Source: an uncultured bacterium
GTDB lineage: Bacteria; Myxococcota_A; Bradymonadia; UBA7976; VGTA01
Assembly (NCBI GenBank): GCA_943788935.1
Contig: CALSSE010000011.1
Span: 310,001-374,000, forward strand
Direction: 5' to 3'
Length of the DNA stretch: 64,000 nt
Shown here: positions 52,626-63,975 of the stretch, in pieces
Position numbering within the stretch: the stretch's first letter is position 1
How the letters are laid out: every line of letters starts with the position of its first letter
The notes under the pieces: model-generated
Databases searched by the model: none
What the model saw: only the letters and a program-made list of their open reading frames with translations
What the model was told of the DNA's origin: nothing
Position numbers and translations under genes: made by a program

Positions 52626-53519
52626 ATGAATAATGTAGAACTTGATGGGCTTTTGAACGATGAGGTGATCATCGTCATCGGTGCAGGGACCATGGGACAT
52701 GGGATCGCTGGGCAGGCTGCTCGTTGTGGCGCGACAGTAAGGATTTTTGACGCGAACGCCGAGTCTCTCACTCGAGGCGAGGCGCAGATCAACTCGATCT
52801 ATCAGAAAGCGATCGTTAAAAATAAAATGAGCGAGTTAGAGGTGAGCGAGTCACTCTCTCGTATCACTTATATCGCGCCGACTCATCCTGAAGCTCTTAC
52901 TCGTTCTTGTGTTGATGCTACCATTGTGATCGAAGCTGCCCCCGAGCGTCTTGAGCTCAAGCAATCTATCTTTAAAGAGGTCGAGGCGGTGGTCTCTAAA
53001 CATACCTTATTGGCGAGCAATACTAGCTCTCTTTCTATCGATAAGATCGCCATGGTTCTCGACCACCCTGAGCGCTTTATAGGGATGCACTTTTTTAATC
53101 CTGTCGCGGTGATGCCTCTCCTAGAGATTGTTCGCGGTTCGCTCACTTCGGAGGCGGTCATCGATCGCACCAGAGCCATCGGAGAAGCGCTTCTCAAGAC
53201 TCCTATTGTCGTCAAAGATGCTCCTGGTTTCGCTACCAGTAGATTAGGGATCGCCCTCGGGAATGAGGCGATGAGGATCTTTGAAGAGGGGGTTGCCTCT
53301 GCAGAAGATATCGATCGAGCTATGGTGTTGGGCTATCGTCACCCCATCGGTCCTTTAGCGCTCACCGATCTGGTTGGATTAGACGTTCGACTCGCGATCA
53401 GCGAGTATTTATATAGTGAGTTAGGCACCGATACGTTTAAACCGCCTCAGGTTCTCAAAGACAAGGTCGCGAGTGGTCAGCTCGGTAAAAAGAGTGGCTC
53501 TGGCTTTTATGAGTACTGA
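52626..53519 (+). CDS. 3-hydroxybutyryl-CoA dehydrogenase
   Basis: A 297-residue NAD(P)-dependent enzyme that interconverts 3-hydroxyacyl-CoA and 3-oxoacyl-CoA. It has the dinucleotide loop VIGAGTMGHGIAG, IEAAPERLELK, ASNTSSLSI, the catalytic His in GMHFFNPVAVMPLLEIVRG, KDAPGFATSRLG, and the C-terminal GPLALTDLVGLD and KKSGSGFYEY. This is the stand-alone short form used in fatty-acid or butyrate/polyhydroxybutyrate metabolism. The N-terminus carries about 12 extra residues. Its last codons overlap the start of the Ser/Thr kinase gene, so the two may be translated together. Confidence 0.95.
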   Translation: MNNVELDGLLNDEVIIVIGAGTMGHGIAGQAARCGATVRIFDANAESLTRGEAQINSIYQKAIVKNKMSELEVSESLSRITYIAPTHPEALTRSCVDATIVIEAAPERLELKQSIFKEVEAVVSKHTLLASNTSSLSIDKIAMVLDHPERFIGMHFFNPVAVMPLLEIVRGSLTSEAVIDRTRAIGEALLKTPIVVKDAPGFATSRLGIALGNEAMRIFEEGVASAEDIDRAMVLGYRHPIGPLALTDLVGLDVRLAISEYLYSELGTDTFKPPQVLKDKVASGQLGKKSGSGFYEY

Positions 53520-55014
53520 GCGTTCAGAGGGTACTCATGTCGATGAGGAACCTCAGCGCTTACTTGATCCTCAGAGCTCAGATGTACCTATGCATTCTCT
53601 TTTTGCCCCGACTGAAGAGTTTCGAGCGATCGATCTGCTAGAGGGAGAAGAGCTCAAGGACCTTCAAGTTGATGACGAGAGTTTAACTCCACCTCCTTCT
53701 CCACCTCCTTCTCCTCACTCATCTCTCCCTCACTCATCTCTCCCTCACTCATCTCTCCCTCACTCATCTCTCCCTCACTTACCATGTGATCTAGATACCT
53801 ATACCTTAACTCAGCTTTATGCTGAGGGAGGGACCGCTCGAGTGTATAGAGCTTTTGAGGCACATTCCAAACAGCCGATCGCCATCAAATTACTCCGTCG
53901 TCGCTTTCATAATGACTCGACGATCAGCAAGAACTTTCGACGACATGGTAACGCTCTAGAGCATTTAGACCTCCCGTTTTTTTCTAAGGTGATCAGTTCT
54001 GGTGACTCTGTGTGGGGACCTTGGTGGGCGATGGAGTGGCTAGAGGGAGAAACTCTACGAACGCTGCTAACCCGAGGTACACATTGGGATGGGAAGAGGC
54101 TTTTAGCGCTTATAAGTCAGCTATGCGAAGCGATTTTAGCTCTCCATCAACAAGGGATGATTCATGGAGACATCAAACCTGACAACATCATTTATCATAA
54201 GAACAAGAGGACAGGGGTTGAGACTCTCACCCTGATCGATCTCGCTCTCCCTCTAACGCTCCATTTTGCTGATGACGTAGAAGCGTTTATATCGGATATA
54301 AACAATACTCCTCAGAGTCAAAAAGAGTCATTAATAGACGCCCAAAGAGCTCGCATGAACAGTGAGTTAATGGTGTTTGGGCAGCCTGTCTATCTAGCTC
54401 CAGAATGCTTGAGGGGAGAGCCTGCTGATTCAAGATCAGACCTCTATAGCCTTGGGGTAGTATTATTTGAGTTAACCACAAGGACGCTACCCTTTGGCAC
54501 AAAAGTCCCCGAGGTGATCTTTGATGTTTTACAGAGAGAAGCACCTCGGCCTGCGGTGAGGCAAAGCCCGTGGCCTTATCCTCCAGCATTGGATGCCATG
54601 ATCAGTAATCTACTCTCCAAGCGGCCTGAGGATCGTATCAGCTCGATTAGTGAAGTGATCACTCTCCTTAAGCAGATGAGACGATCATTGAAGGACAACG
54701 TTGACCAGAGTGCTACCCATGAGTACACGGCTGATTATATGACCGAGGTTCGGGTTAGCTCAACACAACTAGATTCGATCAAGGAACGAAGTGGGACTGA
54801 CCCCTCACTGATCGCTTCTTCAGTTGATCTAGTCTCTATGGATATAACTTCCTCAAGGCAGACTGAAGGCGATTCTCACCGAATCATCGAGAGTAGGCCT
54901 AGAGAGAGAATGATGACTGGAGTGACCCCTGTATTGAGATCAAGAGTGAGAGAGCTATTCATGTGGTTAACTCTTGGGGCCTCCGTTGCTTATGTTATAT
55001 CGCTTGTGATCTAG
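53509..55014 (+). CDS. PknB-type Ser/Thr protein kinase with C-terminal membrane anchor
   Basis: About 501 residues from ATG at 53509, which overlaps the preceding stop; an in-frame start at 53473 is also possible. A disordered N-terminus contains a (SLPHS)n repeat from a 15-bp tandem array. The kinase domain follows: AEGGTARVYRA (Gly loop), IAIKLLRRR (ATP Lys), catalytic loop IHGDIKPDNI, LIDLAL in place of DFG, activation-loop insertion, YLAPECLRG and SDLYSLGVVLFEL. The HGD form makes it a non-RD kinase. After an unstructured Ser/Thr-rich segment the chain ends in a single transmembrane helix (MWLTLGASVAYVISLVI), leaving no extracellular sensor. The FHA protein at 29-31 kb could read its phosphorylation (inference). 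Confidence 0.88.
   Translation: MSTERSEGTHVDEEPQRLLDPQSSDVPMHSLFAPTEEFRAIDLLEGEELKDLQVDDESLTPPPSPPPSPHSSLPHSSLPHSSLPHSSLPHLPCDLDTYTLTQLYAEGGTARVYRAFEAHSKQPIAIKLLRRRFHNDSTISKNFRRHGNALEHLDLPFFSKVISSGDSVWGPWWAMEWLEGETLRTLLTRGTHWDGKRLLALISQLCEAILALHQQGMIHGDIKPDNIIYHKNKRTGVETLTLIDLALPLTLHFADDVEAFISDINNTPQSQKESLIDAQRARMNSELMVFGQPVYLAPECLRGEPADSRSDLYSLGVVLFELTTRTLPFGTKVPEVIFDVLQREAPRPAVRQSPWPYPPALDAMISNLLSKRPEDRISSISEVITLLKQMRRSLKDNVDQSATHEYTADYMTEVRVSSTQLDSIKERSGTDPSLIASSVDLVSMDITSSRQTEGDSHRIIESRPRERMMTGVTPVLRSRVRELFMWLTLGASVAYVISLVI
53716..53775 (+). repeat. 15-bp tandem repeat in kinase gene
   Basis: Four perfect copies of CACTCATCTCTCCCT encode (HSSLP)n. The unit is a multiple of three, in the disordered region before the kinase domain. 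Confidence 0.93.
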
Positions 55015-55033: not shown

Positions 55034-58000
55034 TTACTTGAGCTGATGTTGAGCGACATAAAGCTCAAAGCAAGCCCACTCTCGTGGATGATGTCTTTCC
55101 TGAATGGCGGTTCGTCTTAGATGAGTCAATGTACCCATCATACCGATCAACAGAGACCCTTCGCTTAGTCGCTGTAGGGCTCGAGCGAATAGGGGGCTAA
55201 AGGATTGACCTCTCCAGCGGCAGTGAATAACTCCCCCGTAAACGCTTGTCAGTAATGTTTGAATCGACTTTTGAGGGACTAGATAAGGACTTAAGTTCTT
55301 GCTGAGGATACAGCAACTTGCGTTCACATAAACGAGCGAGCGAACCATCTCACTCATACTGAGCTCGGAAGAGCCATGGTCATCGGTGAAAGAGACCGTT
55401 CCTTTATCGCTAAACTCAGCGTTCAAGGTGACGACGGTCATCCTCTTTTGACCTGAGCCACGCTCTAGGTGATGATGACTCTCTTCAAGCCATGACTCAG
55501 GAGTGTATATGGTTAATTGTGACTGACTTTGAGCGGCTTGATACTCTAGTGTCTCTATGAGCGGGCTATACTCTAAAGGGTCAATATGGCAAAATCGTAA
55601 GCCGTCACGAGGGCTGACAGATTGAGAATATACAGGGTCAGCAGTTGAGAGGGCGATGGCGAGCTCCAGTCTTTCTCCGAGATACTTCCCTTCTCGATCT
55701 ATGAGAGCGGAGAAGGGGATCTGCATCAAGACATCGCTAGGGCTGATCACTAGCCGATGGAGATGAGAGAGGGCTGCGCTAAAGGGCTCAATCAAGAGTT
55801 GGTAGAGTCGTTGAGACGCTTCATTGAATAGGTATTGTGGTTCACTGGCGTCGATGAGGAAGGTGAGCAGCTCTTGAACCTCTCGCTCTAGCTCAGCTCG
55901 TCGTATGGGCGCTTGGTGGGTCAGCACTGATTGATCACGAGTGATTAGGCAGGCTACAAACCAATCTTCAAAGAGGTAATATTCAAGTTTTGCTTCTTGA
56001 GGATTAAGCGCTCGTTGAGGCCAAGAAGGAGTGTCTTTGCGAGTGATGAGTTGATCATAGATTTTATACGATTGAGCAGGAACCTCTTCGCGATTGATCC
56101 ATTGCATCTCAAATCGCTTGCAATGTTCATCCTTAATGAGGATCGAGAGCTCACGTTTAGGGGATACAAAATAATAGGGGTGGTCATTCTCTTTTAAGAT
56201 TTTAATCAGCCATCGAGCTGCAGATTGGCACTCCGCGAGATTTAGCAGGGACTTCACTTGACCCTCAAGCTCTTCGGTTGAGATCTTAGGGAGTAATAAG
56301 GAGAACTGACATAGGTGACTTCGTAAAGCGCTACTAGAGAAGCTCTCATAGGTCCTCTTTAAGAGAGACTCAAGCTGTTCACCTAGAGAGGCTTTATCTT
56401 CAGGTGACATGGCATGATATTGAGGGAGGTTGACTTGTAAGAAGAGGAGGGTCGAATTCAACTGAAGCTGTCTTTGAACTTCACCTCCTCTAGCCCCTTC
56501 GACCTCTTTTAAGACGCGTTCGTATTGTGGGCGAAGCTTGGCGGGTTCATCTGATTGTAGGGTTAGCTCTCTCTTCCAAGCGCGTAAGAGGAAGAGATTA
56601 CTGAGCGCGACGCCAGAGATATGATCGAGAGCTTGAGAAGACTCTAGTGATCGCTTCGCCCCATCACTCTCCCCGAGATGAGCGTAAGTGATTCCTAAGT
56701 AGATAGAGCATTCGAGGTATAACTCATAAGGTAGCTGATGACCTAAATTGGTGAGGAGAATAGATAGGAGATCTAGATCAGAGAGCGCCTCAGGATGATT
56801 GGTCAACCTGATCAGATCACAGCTACGCTTCACTCCGATGGTGATCAAGGTCAGTCGGTGATCATCATCGACCCCCTCTAGTACCCATCGCTCAAGGAAC
56901 ATCACATCTTCATATTTGAGAATCGGACAAGGGATGGCGCGATTGAGGGCGTTATAATAATCCTTAGAGGCCTCAGTGGTTTGGCCAAGTCGCTCTTTGA
57001 TCATGCCCGAGAGTGACAGAGCGGTGGCGGAGAGAATCGGGTCACGATAGGTATCTATACGCGCTTTTGAAGCGACAGAGTTTAATACTGTATGAGCGTG
57101 AGCGTCATCTCCTTGAGCGATCAACCCTTCAGTGATCCGTACCTTTAACCACCCTTGAGTTTCTAAATCTTCGTTTCTGTGGGTAGAGAGCTCACGATGA
57201 CGGTGATCAATCACTTGGAGATGGTATTGACTGAGAGAGATGACCTCCTGCCAATGATGAAGAGCGAGACGTTCAGCCTCTCTCTCATCAGCGAGTAATG
57301 AGGCAAAATCCCTGTGTAGCTTAATGGTGAGCGTCACTCGTCGCTCAAGAGGGAGGGTGGGTAAGTAGGCGAGCTTCTCAATATCGGGGAACCCCTCTAG
57401 TAAGACGAGCCCAATAACCCACTCAAAGGCGAAAGCGGGAGCGCAGTACACAGCCCATTCAAAAGCGAAGAGCAGCTCTTGATAAGCCTCATTGTAGACA
57501 CCTTGATGGTAAAAGTTCATGAAGAGCTTAAGTGACTCTTCAACCTCAGGTGGGTATTTAGGGGTTTTGAGCTGAGAGCGGTAAATCTTTCTCATCCAGC
57601 TAGGTAAGGTGACCATGCTGATACTCTGTTTGGCGAGCGTATAACAGAGTAAGCCGGAATCAATAGGGCTAAGCTGGGCGATCGTTGTGGGTCGGATGTG
57701 AGCTTCGAGTAAGAATCGAGGGTCTCTCAGATTGAGAGGCGCTTCAAAATCACGTTCTAGCAGGTCGATGAGCTCTTGTCTCAAGCTATCTTCCATCTTG
57801 AGAGGGGAGTGATGGACGAGCAGAGAGAGCTGACGACTCACCTCGAGGCTTGCGGTGGTTGGCTCAGTGAGAGCACCAAACAGAGTAATCAAATGACGGA
57901 GAATCTGTATGTAGTCGGGAGCGTCATGTTGATTTAAGCAGGCCAAAAAGTAATTGAATTGGGCGGCGATTCTAGCATCTACCAAATGAGGATAATAGAG

Positions 58001-58123
58001 GTCATACTCTTCGATCACTAGCTTCAGTTGATGACGAGCCTCAGGACTTAAACCACGTCGGAGGAGGTCGATAGAGTCGGATACAATAGACTCTAGCTCT
58101 TGGAGAGATCGTCGCGCGCTCAA
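55034..58123 (-). CDS. TPR protein with degenerate CHAT (caspase-like) domain
   Basis: A 1029-residue protein. The N-terminal 650 residues are helical repeats of TPR type. The C-terminal part (about 690-1029) follows the CHAT layout: LVISPSDVLMQIPFSALIDREGKYLGERLELAIALST, the His-bearing strand, VYVNASCCILS, RALQRLSEG and a final HPREWACFELY. At the catalytic strand the expected 'AxHG' reads VTLNAEF, so the His is Asn901, while Cys937/938 remain at the nucleophile position. The protease is therefore probably inactive. Start is TTG at 58123 with AGAGG ahead. It lies downstream of another TPR protein, separated by a 17-bp array. Confidence 0.8.
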   Translation of the reverse strand: MSARRSLQELESIVSDSIDLLRRGLSPEARHQLKLVIEEYDLYYPHLVDARIAAQFNYFLACLNQHDAPDYIQILRHLITLFGALTEPTTASLEVSRQLSLLVHHSPLKMEDSLRQELIDLLERDFEAPLNLRDPRFLLEAHIRPTTIAQLSPIDSGLLCYTLAKQSISMVTLPSWMRKIYRSQLKTPKYPPEVEESLKLFMNFYHQGVYNEAYQELLFAFEWAVYCAPAFAFEWVIGLVLLEGFPDIEKLAYLPTLPLERRVTLTIKLHRDFASLLADEREAERLALHHWQEVISLSQYHLQVIDHRHRELSTHRNEDLETQGWLKVRITEGLIAQGDDAHAHTVLNSVASKARIDTYRDPILSATALSLSGMIKERLGQTTEASKDYYNALNRAIPCPILKYEDVMFLERWVLEGVDDDHRLTLITIGVKRSCDLIRLTNHPEALSDLDLLSILLTNLGHQLPYELYLECSIYLGITYAHLGESDGAKRSLESSQALDHISGVALSNLFLLRAWKRELTLQSDEPAKLRPQYERVLKEVEGARGGEVQRQLQLNSTLLFLQVNLPQYHAMSPEDKASLGEQLESLLKRTYESFSSSALRSHLCQFSLLLPKISTEELEGQVKSLLNLAECQSAARWLIKILKENDHPYYFVSPKRELSILIKDEHCKRFEMQWINREEVPAQSYKIYDQLITRKDTPSWPQRALNPQEAKLEYYLFEDWFVACLITRDQSVLTHQAPIRRAELEREVQELLTFLIDASEPQYLFNEASQRLYQLLIEPFSAALSHLHRLVISPSDVLMQIPFSALIDREGKYLGERLELAIALSTADPVYSQSVSPRDGLRFCHIDPLEYSPLIETLEYQAAQSQSQLTIYTPESWLEESHHHLERGSGQKRMTVVTLNAEFSDKGTVSFTDDHGSSELSMSEMVRSLVYVNASCCILSKNLSPYLVPQKSIQTLLTSVYGGVIHCRWRGQSFSPLFARALQRLSEGSLLIGMMGTLTHLRRTAIQERHHPREWACFELYVAQHQLK

Positions 58124-59498: not shown

Positions 59499-60308
59499 TT
59501 GACTTGGACAAATCTTCCACTGAGTGAAGCGCTCTATATGTGCTTTGACCTAGAGACTACAGGAGTCAATGTCGCTGAAGATCGGATCGTACAGCTCGCG
59601 GTCTCATATTTTCATCAAGGGCGTGTCGTTCAACAGCATACTCAGCTAATCAACCCAGAGATGCCAATCCCAGAAGGGGCGAGCGCAGTTCATGGGGTCT
59701 ATGATAATGATGTTGTACATCAACCTACATTTAATGAATTTATCTCAAAATTGAAGCCTCATTTGAGAGGTGAGGTCCTCTCAGGCTACCCTCCTCCTAT
59801 TCTAGTGGGTTATAATATCATTAGTTATGATGTCCCTCTATTTAAGCATGAACTTGCGCGAATCGGAGAGGATGAGACGCTCATTGACTTACCAATGATT
59901 GATCTGATTTATTTCGCTCGCTGGCATCTGAGACAACATAGATCACTTAAACTCACCGAGCTTTGTAAGCATTTTAATGTGCCGCTCGATAACGCACATA
60001 ACGCTTTATTTGATGCTAAAGCCTGTGGGATGCTCTTGCCATTGTTCTACCGATCAGGATACCTCGCGGATACGCTCGGAGAGGTGATGAGAGAGCAAGC
60101 TAAGTTCAGAAAACAGCTAGGCGAAGAATATGAGAATTACCGCCGTTGGCTCTATCATGATCGGTTTACTAGTGAGTTAACTATCGGCCAAGGGAAGCAC
60201 ATCGGGACGCCTCTTCACAAGGCAGATAAGGGGTTCTTGAGTTACTGCCTCAACAACTTCGAGGGGATTCCTGAGCTCGTGCAAGAGGCTTTTAGAGACC
60301 ATATTTGA
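59499..60308 (+). CDS. DEDDh 3'-5' exonuclease (DnaQ-like)
   Basis: A 269-residue protein. ExoI is CFDLETTG (Asp17, Glu19), ExoII VGYNIISYDVPLFKHEL, ExoIII HNALFDAKA, the full acidic set of DnaQ/RNase T-type nucleases. IPEGASAVHGVYD matches the 'GI' region of polymerase III epsilon-like exonucleases. The last 70 residues (YENYRRWLYHDRFTSELTIGQGKHIGTPLHKADKGFLSYCLNN) form an extra C-terminal domain like that found on some exodeoxyribonuclease X proteins. Start is TTG at 59499 with AGAGGG seven bases ahead. It is a single gene. A proofreading or repair role is likely; it is too short for a polymerase fusion. Confidence 0.88.
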   Translation: MTWTNLPLSEALYMCFDLETTGVNVAEDRIVQLAVSYFHQGRVVQQHTQLINPEMPIPEGASAVHGVYDNDVVHQPTFNEFISKLKPHLRGEVLSGYPPPILVGYNIISYDVPLFKHELARIGEDETLIDLPMIDLIYFARWHLRQHRSLKLTELCKHFNVPLDNAHNALFDAKACGMLLPLFYRSGYLADTLGEVMREQAKFRKQLGEEYENYRRWLYHDRFTSELTIGQGKHIGTPLHKADKGFLSYCLNNFEGIPELVQEAFRDHI

Positions 60309-60332: not shown

Positions 60333-61745
60333 CTATTTGTTTTTGGGGCGCACTTGCTTGAGGCTCTTTCTTCTTCTCTTTCTCTTTTTAATAGGTCTTA
60401 AAATCATATCATCAGTGAGTGAGTGATCGAGTGATTGATCTCTAGTTCTATAATATGATTGTGATGGAACATGTCTATCAGCCTCATGTCTCGGGGCAGA
60501 GCTTGAATCTGAGGGTTGAGGGTTGAGAGATGGATTATTCTCAGAGATAAACTCTTGTATTTCAAGTGAAGGAGCCTCGCTCTCCGCTAGTGATGGACTC
60601 TCCTCTACTAGAGGCGATGAGGACTCAGAAGATGAGGACTCAGAAAGACCATCAATGGGGTGACCTAATGTAGAGTTAGTTCGCTTGTAGAACTGATATT
60701 CGGTGACAAAGTGGTCTACTCTGTTGAGCTGAAACCACCAAGCGTCTAACTCCATAGGAGAGAATGAGCTAAACTCTTCATGGTGAGTGACAAGATCATA
60801 AAACGCTTCTTGATCCTTAATCATATTCTCATGAACCTCGACGAGAGAGTCTAGAGAAGCGAGCCATGAACCAAATAGCATAGATCTCGATGAAGGAGAA
60901 TATTGCTGCCATTGGTTGATGTGGGCATAGCCGATCTTTTCCCATTTTGACATTGACCTCAGAGGAGGGCGACGCCAAGTATTTAATGGACGAGCTTCAA
61001 GCTCCTCAGAGTCTTTGGAGCTCATGTGGTCGGCGCTATTATTCTCTCGATGACCCTCTTTGTTATCCTCTATACTAGACTGAGTGGAGGCTGAGCTCTT
61101 CTTTTGGGCTCGACGGGCTCTCTCAGCCTTCTTACGACGTCTCCTCTTCAGTCTCTCTCGTTCTTCATCTCGGATTTTGATTCGCTGTATTCCCTGTGGA
61201 GGTAGCCCTGAAGAGCCAGAGAAAGAGGCGCTCTCTTTAGGGTAGGCGGTATGATCACTAGTGTCATATTGATCTCCTTCAGAGAAGTTTTGTCCGATCT
61301 CACGATCCGCAAAACGGGTTTGAATCGACTCTAACTCTTCTCTTTGAAGCTCTTCCTGACCATCTTTGAGGAGTCGGTCTGCATATCCGAGTAGCTGAGG
61401 GTCTATCTCCTCTTCAATAGAATCTGAAGGAGGTTGGTCTGATCCACGCTCAAAATACTCAATTTCATCAAGCTCTAAATAGTCATCGTCATGATCTAGA
61501 TGGGAGAGGAAAGAGAGACTCTCTTCGTCTTCAAACTCATTTAATATCCCCTCAGAGGACTCTCTCTCTAGTGTCTCATCTGCTTGATCTTCTGTGGCGA
61601 TTCTCTCTTGATGACTCTGGTTAGACTGTGGGGGGACATCTAGTAGACGATCAATCCATCTCTCTAGTCTCTTGACGAGCTCACTCCTTGTGATCCATCT
61701 CATCGCTGATAAGAACCAGGATGCTTGGGGTGGAGGCTGAGACAT
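60333..61745 (-). CDS. hypothetical acidic protein with Lys/Arg-rich block
   Basis: A 470-residue protein of unknown family. The N-terminus has a short amphipathic helix (SWFLSAMRWITRSELVKRLERWIDRLL). About 120 strongly acidic residues follow, then a Lys/Arg block (ERLKRRRRKKAERARRAQKK, about residues 195-215), a compact predicted region with Trp and aromatic residues (about 265-360: KWEKIGYAHINQWQQYS, LDAWWFQLNRV), a Ser/Glu-rich tail and a basic C-terminus (KKRKRRRKSLKQ). The charge blocks and central fold suggest a nucleic-acid- or polyanion-binding protein, but this is only a guess. It converges with the exonuclease gene and is 84 bp downstream of the P450-like gene. Confidence 0.65.
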   Translation of the reverse strand: MSQPPPQASWFLSAMRWITRSELVKRLERWIDRLLDVPPQSNQSHQERIATEDQADETLERESSEGILNEFEDEESLSFLSHLDHDDDYLELDEIEYFERGSDQPPSDSIEEEIDPQLLGYADRLLKDGQEELQREELESIQTRFADREIGQNFSEGDQYDTSDHTAYPKESASFSGSSGLPPQGIQRIKIRDEERERLKRRRRKKAERARRAQKKSSASTQSSIEDNKEGHRENNSADHMSSKDSEELEARPLNTWRRPPLRSMSKWEKIGYAHINQWQQYSPSSRSMLFGSWLASLDSLVEVHENMIKDQEAFYDLVTHHEEFSSFSPMELDAWWFQLNRVDHFVTEYQFYKRTNSTLGHPIDGLSESSSSESSSPLVEESPSLAESEAPSLEIQEFISENNPSLNPQPSDSSSAPRHEADRHVPSQSYYRTRDQSLDHSLTDDMILRPIKKRKRRRKSLKQVRPKNK

Positions 61746-61829: not shown

Positions 61830-63293
61830 TTATTTAGCAGAGCTCTTTTGTTGAACGTAGTCTCGTTTATGAAGCCACTGCACAGACGTCGAAGGCCGGA
61901 GACAAATACTCAATTCCCAAGAGATCGATGAAGGTATATCGACGGCATTGTACCTAGCAAACCACATCATCAAGAATCGAGCAGCGACCTCTTTACAATA
62001 GACCTCACTCAGCGATGGTTGTCCATGATAACCAAAGGGAGCAAAGGAGTAGAGGGGGAGTTGGTTCTCTAGGTTTCCGGACCAACGTTGAGGCCAAAAT
62101 CGCTCTGCTTTAGGAAAGCTCTCACTGTTGTGATGTGAACCCCAAGGGCTTAGCCAGATGAGGTCATCTACTGTAGTAGTGGGTCCTCTCTCCTCATCTT
62201 GCTGTGCACTTCCTAGGGGTAATACACCACTAGAGACTCTATATTGAGACAACCAATTGGGAGGATAAAGCCTCAAAGCCTCAAGTACGATGGCGTTGTG
62301 TAAAGGGATCGTTTTCCACGCTGACTCATTATGGGGAGTTATCGGAGGAGGAGTCCCTTCATCCAAAGTAGAGATGCTCGTGATTAATTTGACGACATTA
62401 TTTGTCTCTCGTGACAGCTCCTCTAAAAAGTCAGATTGAGACTCCATCGTGATGTTGGTTATGGCGCCAAAGAGTATCTTGGGGAGGCTTGTGTAAGCCA
62501 TCATCAAGAAACAGATCGCTTCGCTCATGACCTGATCTTCTTTGAGTGACCGACCATCTATTCCTTTGGTATGTACCCAACGAGTGAGCAGGTCATCCTT
62601 CTTGTCTCCTCCTCCGATCTGATCCCTGATGATAGGGCGAATCGTTGCCTCTAATGATTTGAGACTTTGAGAAGCTTGTTTGACATCGGGATTTTGGAGC
62701 AGGCCAAAGCGAGTTCGAGCACCTGTATAAGCGACGCGAGCATAGGCAGTATCTATCCCCTCTAGCGCGGCCTCTACTTGATTGAGGAGCTCGCCTCTAA
62801 ACATAGAACAGACGGTTCGTCCTACGATCATTAGAGAGGCTGAGCGTAAACTCTTATATAGCTCATCAGCGCTTTGGAAGCTCTTCGTATCGCTCTCTTC
62901 CTTCTGGGCCTGATAGATCTTTTTAAGAGCGGCTTCAGTCCACGGCAACCAGCGTTCAAAGAAATCATTAGGTTGATGCTTTTGGAGGGCATCCATGGCC
63001 GAAGAGCCTGGTCGAAGTCGTTGAGTAAAGGGCCTCAGATTAAGAGATTTATTACCCAGTTTAGCGGGATCTCCCCATGGGTCATGACTTAACTTAATAT
63101 CTCTACCTGTGAGGATATCACCGATCAAATGAGGGTGATAAGCAGCGATCCCATGATGTTGGTCAAACTGGATTTGACGCCATCGGTTAGATTGCTTCAA
63201 AGCGGTTATCTGCATAGGAGATATCTGCTCAAGCTCAAGGAGTGGTTGAGAGATCACTTGTTTATGAGTTGTTTTATAGAGGTCTTGACTCAC
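61830..63293 (-). CDS. cytochrome P450-like protein lacking the heme-ligand cysteine
   Basis: A 487-residue protein with P450 architecture: the K-helix ExxR is EALR (residues 338-341, in EALRLYPPNW), the PERF-type segment is FPKAERFWPQRW (about 393-404), and a heme-loop equivalent is at 420-437. Aligned without gaps to FGxGxRxCxG, the loop reads FGYHGQPSLS: the ligand Cys is Ser427 (codon at 62013-62015), the conserved Arg is Gln425, and the final Gly is Ser429. A nearby Cys433 falls where the helix L Ala normally sits. The I-helix 'AGxxT' is AYTS (about 266-269). It is either a serine-ligated heme protein or a non-heme relative. It lies 118 bp downstream of the TetR gene, same strand. Confidence 0.78.
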   Translation of the reverse strand: MSQDLYKTTHKQVISQPLLELEQISPMQITALKQSNRWRQIQFDQHHGIAAYHPHLIGDILTGRDIKLSHDPWGDPAKLGNKSLNLRPFTQRLRPGSSAMDALQKHQPNDFFERWLPWTEAALKKIYQAQKEESDTKSFQSADELYKSLRSASLMIVGRTVCSMFRGELLNQVEAALEGIDTAYARVAYTGARTRFGLLQNPDVKQASQSLKSLEATIRPIIRDQIGGGDKKDDLLTRWVHTKGIDGRSLKEDQVMSEAICFLMMAYTSLPKILFGAITNITMESQSDFLEELSRETNNVVKLITSISTLDEGTPPPITPHNESAWKTIPLHNAIVLEALRLYPPNWLSQYRVSSGVLPLGSAQQDEERGPTTTVDDLIWLSPWGSHHNSESFPKAERFWPQRWSGNLENQLPLYSFAPFGYHGQPSLSEVYCKEVAARFLMMWFARYNAVDIPSSISWELSICLRPSTSVQWLHKRDYVQQKSSAK

Positions 63294-63411: not shown

Positions 63412-63975
63412 TTACTTAAGTGAGTTTGTAATTTCTTGACCGATCAACTGTAGAGCTGCAAGTTGACGCTCAATGGGGTAGGCATTAGGCCTGAGATCTC
63501 GATAGACGATGACACCTAGCAAAACGCTAAAGAGGGCATCTAGTTGTGCTTCATCAACAATGCCCAATTGGGTTTGTATAGAATCTAAGTAAGCGTTGAT
63601 CACTCTGTCAGTGAGACCTCTTGAGCGCTCTCCCTCATGCCTCTTGTAGTCTAGAGTGACGTGAATGATCTGTGAGAAGTGGGTCTCTCTCTTTCCCAAA
63701 TACTGTGAGAGATTAATGAGCTTTGCAGCCCAAGGTTGATCGGCAGGCACTTCGAGGAGGGCGGCTTTGGCATCTTGAGCTAAAACGAGATCAATCATCT
63801 GCTCAAAGAGAGCGAGTTTACCATCAAAGTAGTGGTATAAGGTCCCTGTTGTCACGCCGAGGTGTTTAGCGATCTCACGCATAGAGATGGCGTGAAACCC
63901 TCGAGAAGCAAAGAGCTCGAGACAGGGTTTTAGTAGCTCTTCACGACGAGCGTCATGATCAACTATTTTAGGCAT
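63412..63975 (-). CDS. TetR family transcriptional regulator
   Basis: A 187-residue regulator with the N-terminal helix-turn-helix (about residues 8-54): RREELLKPCLELFASRGFHAISMREIAKHLGVTTGTLYHYFDGKLALF, with the second helix and recognition helix in the standard spacing. The C-terminal helices form the ligand-binding and dimerisation part. TAAGGA lies ahead of the ATG at 63975. The P450-like gene follows in the same direction, and the 118-bp gap contains AAGATATG twice and ATATGAG direct repeats that could be a site for a regulator. Regulation of the P450-like gene by this protein is plausible but unproven. Confidence 0.93.
   Translation of the reverse strand: MPKIVDHDARREELLKPCLELFASRGFHAISMREIAKHLGVTTGTLYHYFDGKLALFEQMIDLVLAQDAKAALLEVPADQPWAAKLINLSQYLGKRETHFSQIIHVTLDYKRHEGERSRGLTDRVINAYLDSIQTQLGIVDEAQLDALFSVLLGVIVYRDLRPNAYPIERQLAALQLIGQEITNSLK

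Follow-up and report, generated by a model that had tools for sequence, protein, structure and literature searches.

To our knowledge, the P450-fold proteins that lack the ligand cysteine and have a demonstrated role are mainly activators of glycosyltransferases. Engineered serine-ligated P450s, the P411 variants, do hold heme. Among natural proteins, EryCII is a cysteine-less P450 homologue that has been crystallised together with the glycosyltransferase it activates (PMC3391682), and members of the P450 family CYP5619D of oomycetes have been reported without the cysteine of the heme motif (PMC5919972).

The protein described here is encoded in a 64,000-nucleotide stretch of DNA (the “window”), and with its two orthologues forms what we call family A, in which the ligand cysteine is always serine. 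Family A is, in our judgement, probably a conserved P450-fold pseudoenzyme, predicted to be heme-free and to carry out no P450 monooxygenation. Like EryCII and DesVIII (TIGR04515), it combines a P450 fold and a conserved I/K/L helix core with the lack of a ligand cysteine, in a gene that has been maintained (PMC3391682).

Gene, fold and heme loop

The family A gene of the window (61830..63293, minus strand) is an intact open reading frame of 487 codons with orthologues in other genomes; it starts with GTG, six bases downstream of the ribosome-binding site GGGGAG. The Pfam p450 model (PF00067) matches the protein with 36.8 bits against a curated cut-off of 22.8 (E 2.5e-9), over residues 325–421, stopping just short of the ligand position. 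Both motifs of the P450 fold named in the initial annotation are found in this frame: the ExxR of the K helix (E338-A-L-R341; 62271..62282, minus strand) and the PERF-type motif WPQRW, from W400 to W404 (F-W-P401-Q-R403-W; 62082..62096, minus strand), both placed by alignment and codon positions.

In place of the cysteine ligand in the FxxGxRxCxG loop of functional heme-thiolate P450s, the protein has Ser427 (codon TCG; 62013..62015, minus strand), and serine occupies this position in three of three orthologues (TCG, TCA and AGC). A profile–profile alignment to four canonical relatives, at a probability of 99.7% and an E value of 2e-25, pairs Ser427 with the ligand cysteine in a gapless loop, as well as Met265 with the I-helix alanine, Thr268 with glutamate and Ser269 with threonine; the same Ser427/cysteine pairing results when MAFFT aligns the protein with P450 BM3 and 24 canonical relatives. 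The assignment of Ser427 to the ligand position in the initial annotation is borne out by both alignments, and since its codon is TCG (read from 62015 to 62013), two changes are needed to reach it from a cysteine codon, as had been pointed out. Cys433 (61995..61997, minus strand), which had been raised as a possible proximal ligand, is not supported in that role: no alignment places it proximally, and in every one it lies six residues beyond the ligand position, at the alanine of helix L (BM3 Ala406), while helix L of the predicted structure comprises residues 428–447, directly after Ser427. Cys433 and Cys464 (61902..61904, minus strand; aligned with BM3 Thr438) are two invariant cysteines of the family, at the equivalents of BM3 406 and 438.

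The rest of the loop has changed as well. The heme-propionate arginine is replaced by Gln425 in the window protein (62019..62021, minus strand) and by Asn or Pro in the orthologues; its counterpart in BM3, Arg398, bonds a heme carboxylate (PMC11900375). In the alignment, Ser429 of an invariant Ser429-Glu430 pair (62004..62009, minus strand) takes the place of the second loop glycine, and His423 stands where the first one belongs. The initial annotation had correctly listed the arginine and the second glycine as replaced; the first glycine can now be added.

An AlphaFold2 model of the protein reached a pLDDT of 75 and a pTM of 0.84 from an input alignment that included true P450s from viral contigs, which biases the model towards the P450 fold; with the three orthologues alone the pLDDT was 39. 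First scans of viral contigs had returned no relatives. The best fold match of the model in the PDB (Foldseek) is P450 BM3, with an E value of about 1e-14 and a TM score of about 0.6–0.7, so that pTM and fold match together point to a P450 fold, with P450s contained in the input alignment.

Residues lost and kept

As a reference for residue loss we used 58 alignment columns that hardly vary among BM3 and 24 canonical relatives (the BM3 sequence used agrees with PDB 1bvy over 457 residues). All three family A members retain 20 of the 58 columns, mostly scaffold ones, including ExxR, RLxPP, FxPxR and the PF that precedes the loop. Family A has lost both loop glycines (BM3 396 and 402), the loop arginine (398), the cysteine (400) and the helix-L alanine (406), which is now Cys433. 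In the I helix, the alanine at BM3 264 and the acid-alcohol pair at 268 and 269 are gone, and 265 varies; AGxET has become M(A/G)YTS across the family. In the window protein this segment reads M265-A-Y-T268-S269 (62487..62501, minus strand) in place of A/G-G-x-E/D-T, with Met265 invariant at the position of BM3 Ala264 and Thr268-Ser269 instead of the Glu/Asp-Thr of a functional heme-thiolate P450. The three-member alignment has no invariant histidine. The sorting of columns into heme side and scaffold is our own and was made post hoc, after the table had been seen. The C helix was left out of the count, and the equivalents of Trp96 and Arg100 are not relied on because two of the alignments differ there. 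Judged from these alignments, the losses follow the pattern of a heme site dismantled on a retained scaffold.

Conservation, paralogue and genomic setting

The window genome, G001 and G002 are all three genomes of the taxonomic family that were examined, and their family A proteins are 60% (G001) and 40% (G002) identical to that of the window; a profile search of 57 genomes of the class found no further close member. NCBI assigns both named records to Myxococcota. The serine is therefore not confined to one assembly, a doubt raised in the initial annotation. Ser427, Ser429, Glu430, Cys433, Cys464 and Met265 are invariant in the three orthologues, although with only three of them conservation is thinly sampled. 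Because TCN and AGY codons are not one step apart, Ser427 was either kept through a codon switch or arose twice, between which three sequences cannot distinguish. Between the window genome and G001, dN of the gene is 0.35 with saturated synonymous sites (pS 0.79), and that of its neighbours 0.32 (exonuclease), 0.33 (thioredoxin-TPR), 0.29 (AlkB) and 0.23 (TetR). The family A gene is about as slow-evolving as its neighbours and is under purifying selection.

A second P450-fold protein, of 422 residues and with a PF00067 match, is encoded beside secA in the window's own genome (C12; L001 871-2139), and its loop likewise lacks the cysteine: it reads PFGLGRQGD there and PFGSGAQGK in G001, the residue in place of the ligand being Asp in the one and Lys in the other. 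A G002 frame of the same kind (L201), adjoined by the same large secreted-type gene, is cut off by a contig end before the loop; the cysteine loss in the paralogue is thus seen in the two genomes whose loop is covered. This paralogue evolves faster than family A (dN 0.69 versus 0.35). No canonical P450 and no further PF00067 match above the cut-off were found in the three genomes, which are 88–91% complete, so that a canonical P450 could have been missed. In a phylogenetic tree, family A and the paralogue family each form one clade, and family A groups with canonical P450s (support 90/83). A joint clade of the two is not rejected (p-AU 0.38); the tree neither establishes nor excludes a single loss of the cysteine before the paralogues split.

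Within the window's genus, one strand carries, in this order, thioredoxin-TPR, AlkB, TetR, the family A gene and a low-complexity gene. The TetR-family regulator (63412..63975, minus strand; PF00440, 8.4e-17) lies directly upstream of the family A gene and pairs with an AlkB-type membrane monooxygenase (PF00487, 3e-28) that lies almost wholly past the right end of the window (L032 2968-4050), the two overlapping by eight bases. Downstream are a co-oriented low-complexity protein of 470 residues with no Pfam family (60333..61745, minus strand) and a convergent RNase T-type exonuclease (59499..60308, plus strand; PF00929, 2.7e-20), whose counterpart in G002 (L034 4859-5770) is the sole neighbour shared with that genome. 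Also encoded in the window are a protein of 1029 residues that contains a CHAT protease-like domain and matches TPR weakly (55034-58123), and a Ser/Thr protein kinase (53473-55014) that carries a short stretch of proline/serine repeats towards its N terminus and a hydrophobic segment at its C terminus.

This arrangement may reflect co-transcription of the family A gene with AlkB and TetR in the window's genus, as a local link; co-regulation with alkane oxidation is possible, though it is not a family trait, since G002 has no AlkB match and shares only the exonuclease, and since L202 and L203, from another family of the class, also carry AlkB-TetR but show no relative of the family A protein within the flanking 1.5 kb or so. 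The upstream sequence yielded no conserved operator palindrome.

Interpretation and relation to known systems

What favours a heme-free protein with another job is that serine always replaces the cysteine and that most of the remaining heme contacts have been lost. Family A has retained its scaffold (the I, K and L helices with the ExxR/PERF core), while the heme-thiolate site was dismantled, leaving a serine at the ligand position, neither the arginine nor the glycines of the loop, no I-helix acid and a methionine over the iron position. The protein would most likely fold without heme and have no oxygenase activity, and its role could be one of binding: the emptied cavity might take up a hydrophobic ligand or, by analogy with EryCII and its glycosyltransferase, the protein might bind a partner protein. 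The initial annotation had offered a heme-free pseudoenzyme as its alternative, and this is the better fit, as the cysteine was lost together with the heme-propionate arginine, the two glycines of the loop and the small residue that the I helix places over the iron. On the other side, a merely emptied pocket need not retain serine, so that the invariance of Ser427 (in TCN and AGY codons), Ser429 and Glu430 suggests a specific role for the loop, and the engineered P411s do keep their heme.

The initial annotation's own proposal, a natural serine-ligated heme, holds as far as a conserved serine at the site is concerned; the heme ligation itself is less well supported, given the lost arginine, loop glycines and I-helix residue and the Asp or Lys of the paralogue. 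That Ser427 binds iron, for a chemistry unlike P450 oxygenation, would agree with a serine placed exactly at the ligand position and invariant through different codons, with the retained ExxR/PERF core, and with the engineered BM3 variant P411BM3-Cis (4h23) among the PDB sequence matches. We found no natural serine-ligated P450 in the open-access literature. Given Gln, Asn or Pro for the arginine that holds the propionate in BM3 (PMC11900375), the absence of the two loop glycines and of the I-helix acid, the Met that stands over the iron, and the Asp or Lys of the paralogue, a naturally evolved serine-ligated P450-fold heme protein conserved in one Myxococcota family, possibly with Met265 as second ligand, is improbable. 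A heme protein that uses other ligands, for instance a distal Met265, and functions in electron transfer or sensing appears very doubtful: Met265 is indeed invariant at the BM3 Ala264 position, where Lys or His in BM3 variants coordinates the iron (PMC11900375), but the same heme-holding residues are lost, no histidine is invariant, and the methionine could simply fill an empty cavity. It is likewise improbable that the old pocket houses a new, heme-independent catalytic site built from Ser427, Ser429, Glu430 and the I-helix Thr268-Ser269; these residues are all invariant, yet only in three sequences and in no known catalytic motif that we could recognise. Loss of catalytic residues also resembles the decay of a pseudogene, but decay or a sequencing or assembly error can hardly be credited, because Ser427 is found in varied codons and dN is low against saturated synonymous sites; open frames in three separate assemblies agree, with substitutions strongly biased to synonymous sites.

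The predicted heme-free pseudoenzyme can thus be set beside the described systems. It differs from EryCII and DesVIII in that the TIGR04515 model gave no match in any of the three genomes at E values up to 1, and in that the neighbouring genes scanned (kinase, CHAT/TPR, exonuclease, TetR, AlkB, thioredoxin-TPR, YdjM and RND) include no glycosyltransferase; the interface of EryCII is made by its N-terminal A'' helix. As far as sequence can tell, family A is similar in kind to EryCII/DesVIII but outside that family by the TIGR04515 model. With the canonical P450s nearest in sequence (loop FGGGxRxCIG) it shares the ExxR/PERF core and the gapless loop; these differ in having the cysteine and loop glycines in 24 of 24, the loop arginine in 23 of 24 and an AGxETT-type I helix in nearly all. 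CYP102A1 (P450 BM3), its best PDB fold match, is about 14% identical, and the P411 variants of BM3 have serine at the same position; unlike family A as aligned with canonical relatives and BM3, these variants have an otherwise intact heme pocket. CYP5619D resembles family A in missing the heme-motif cysteine and differs in being a eukaryotic family of fusion proteins. Beside these, the detectable P450 complement of a distinct bacterial lineage, two paralogues, seems to have become cysteine-less and to have been kept, with an invariant serine at the ligand position in one of them, family A.
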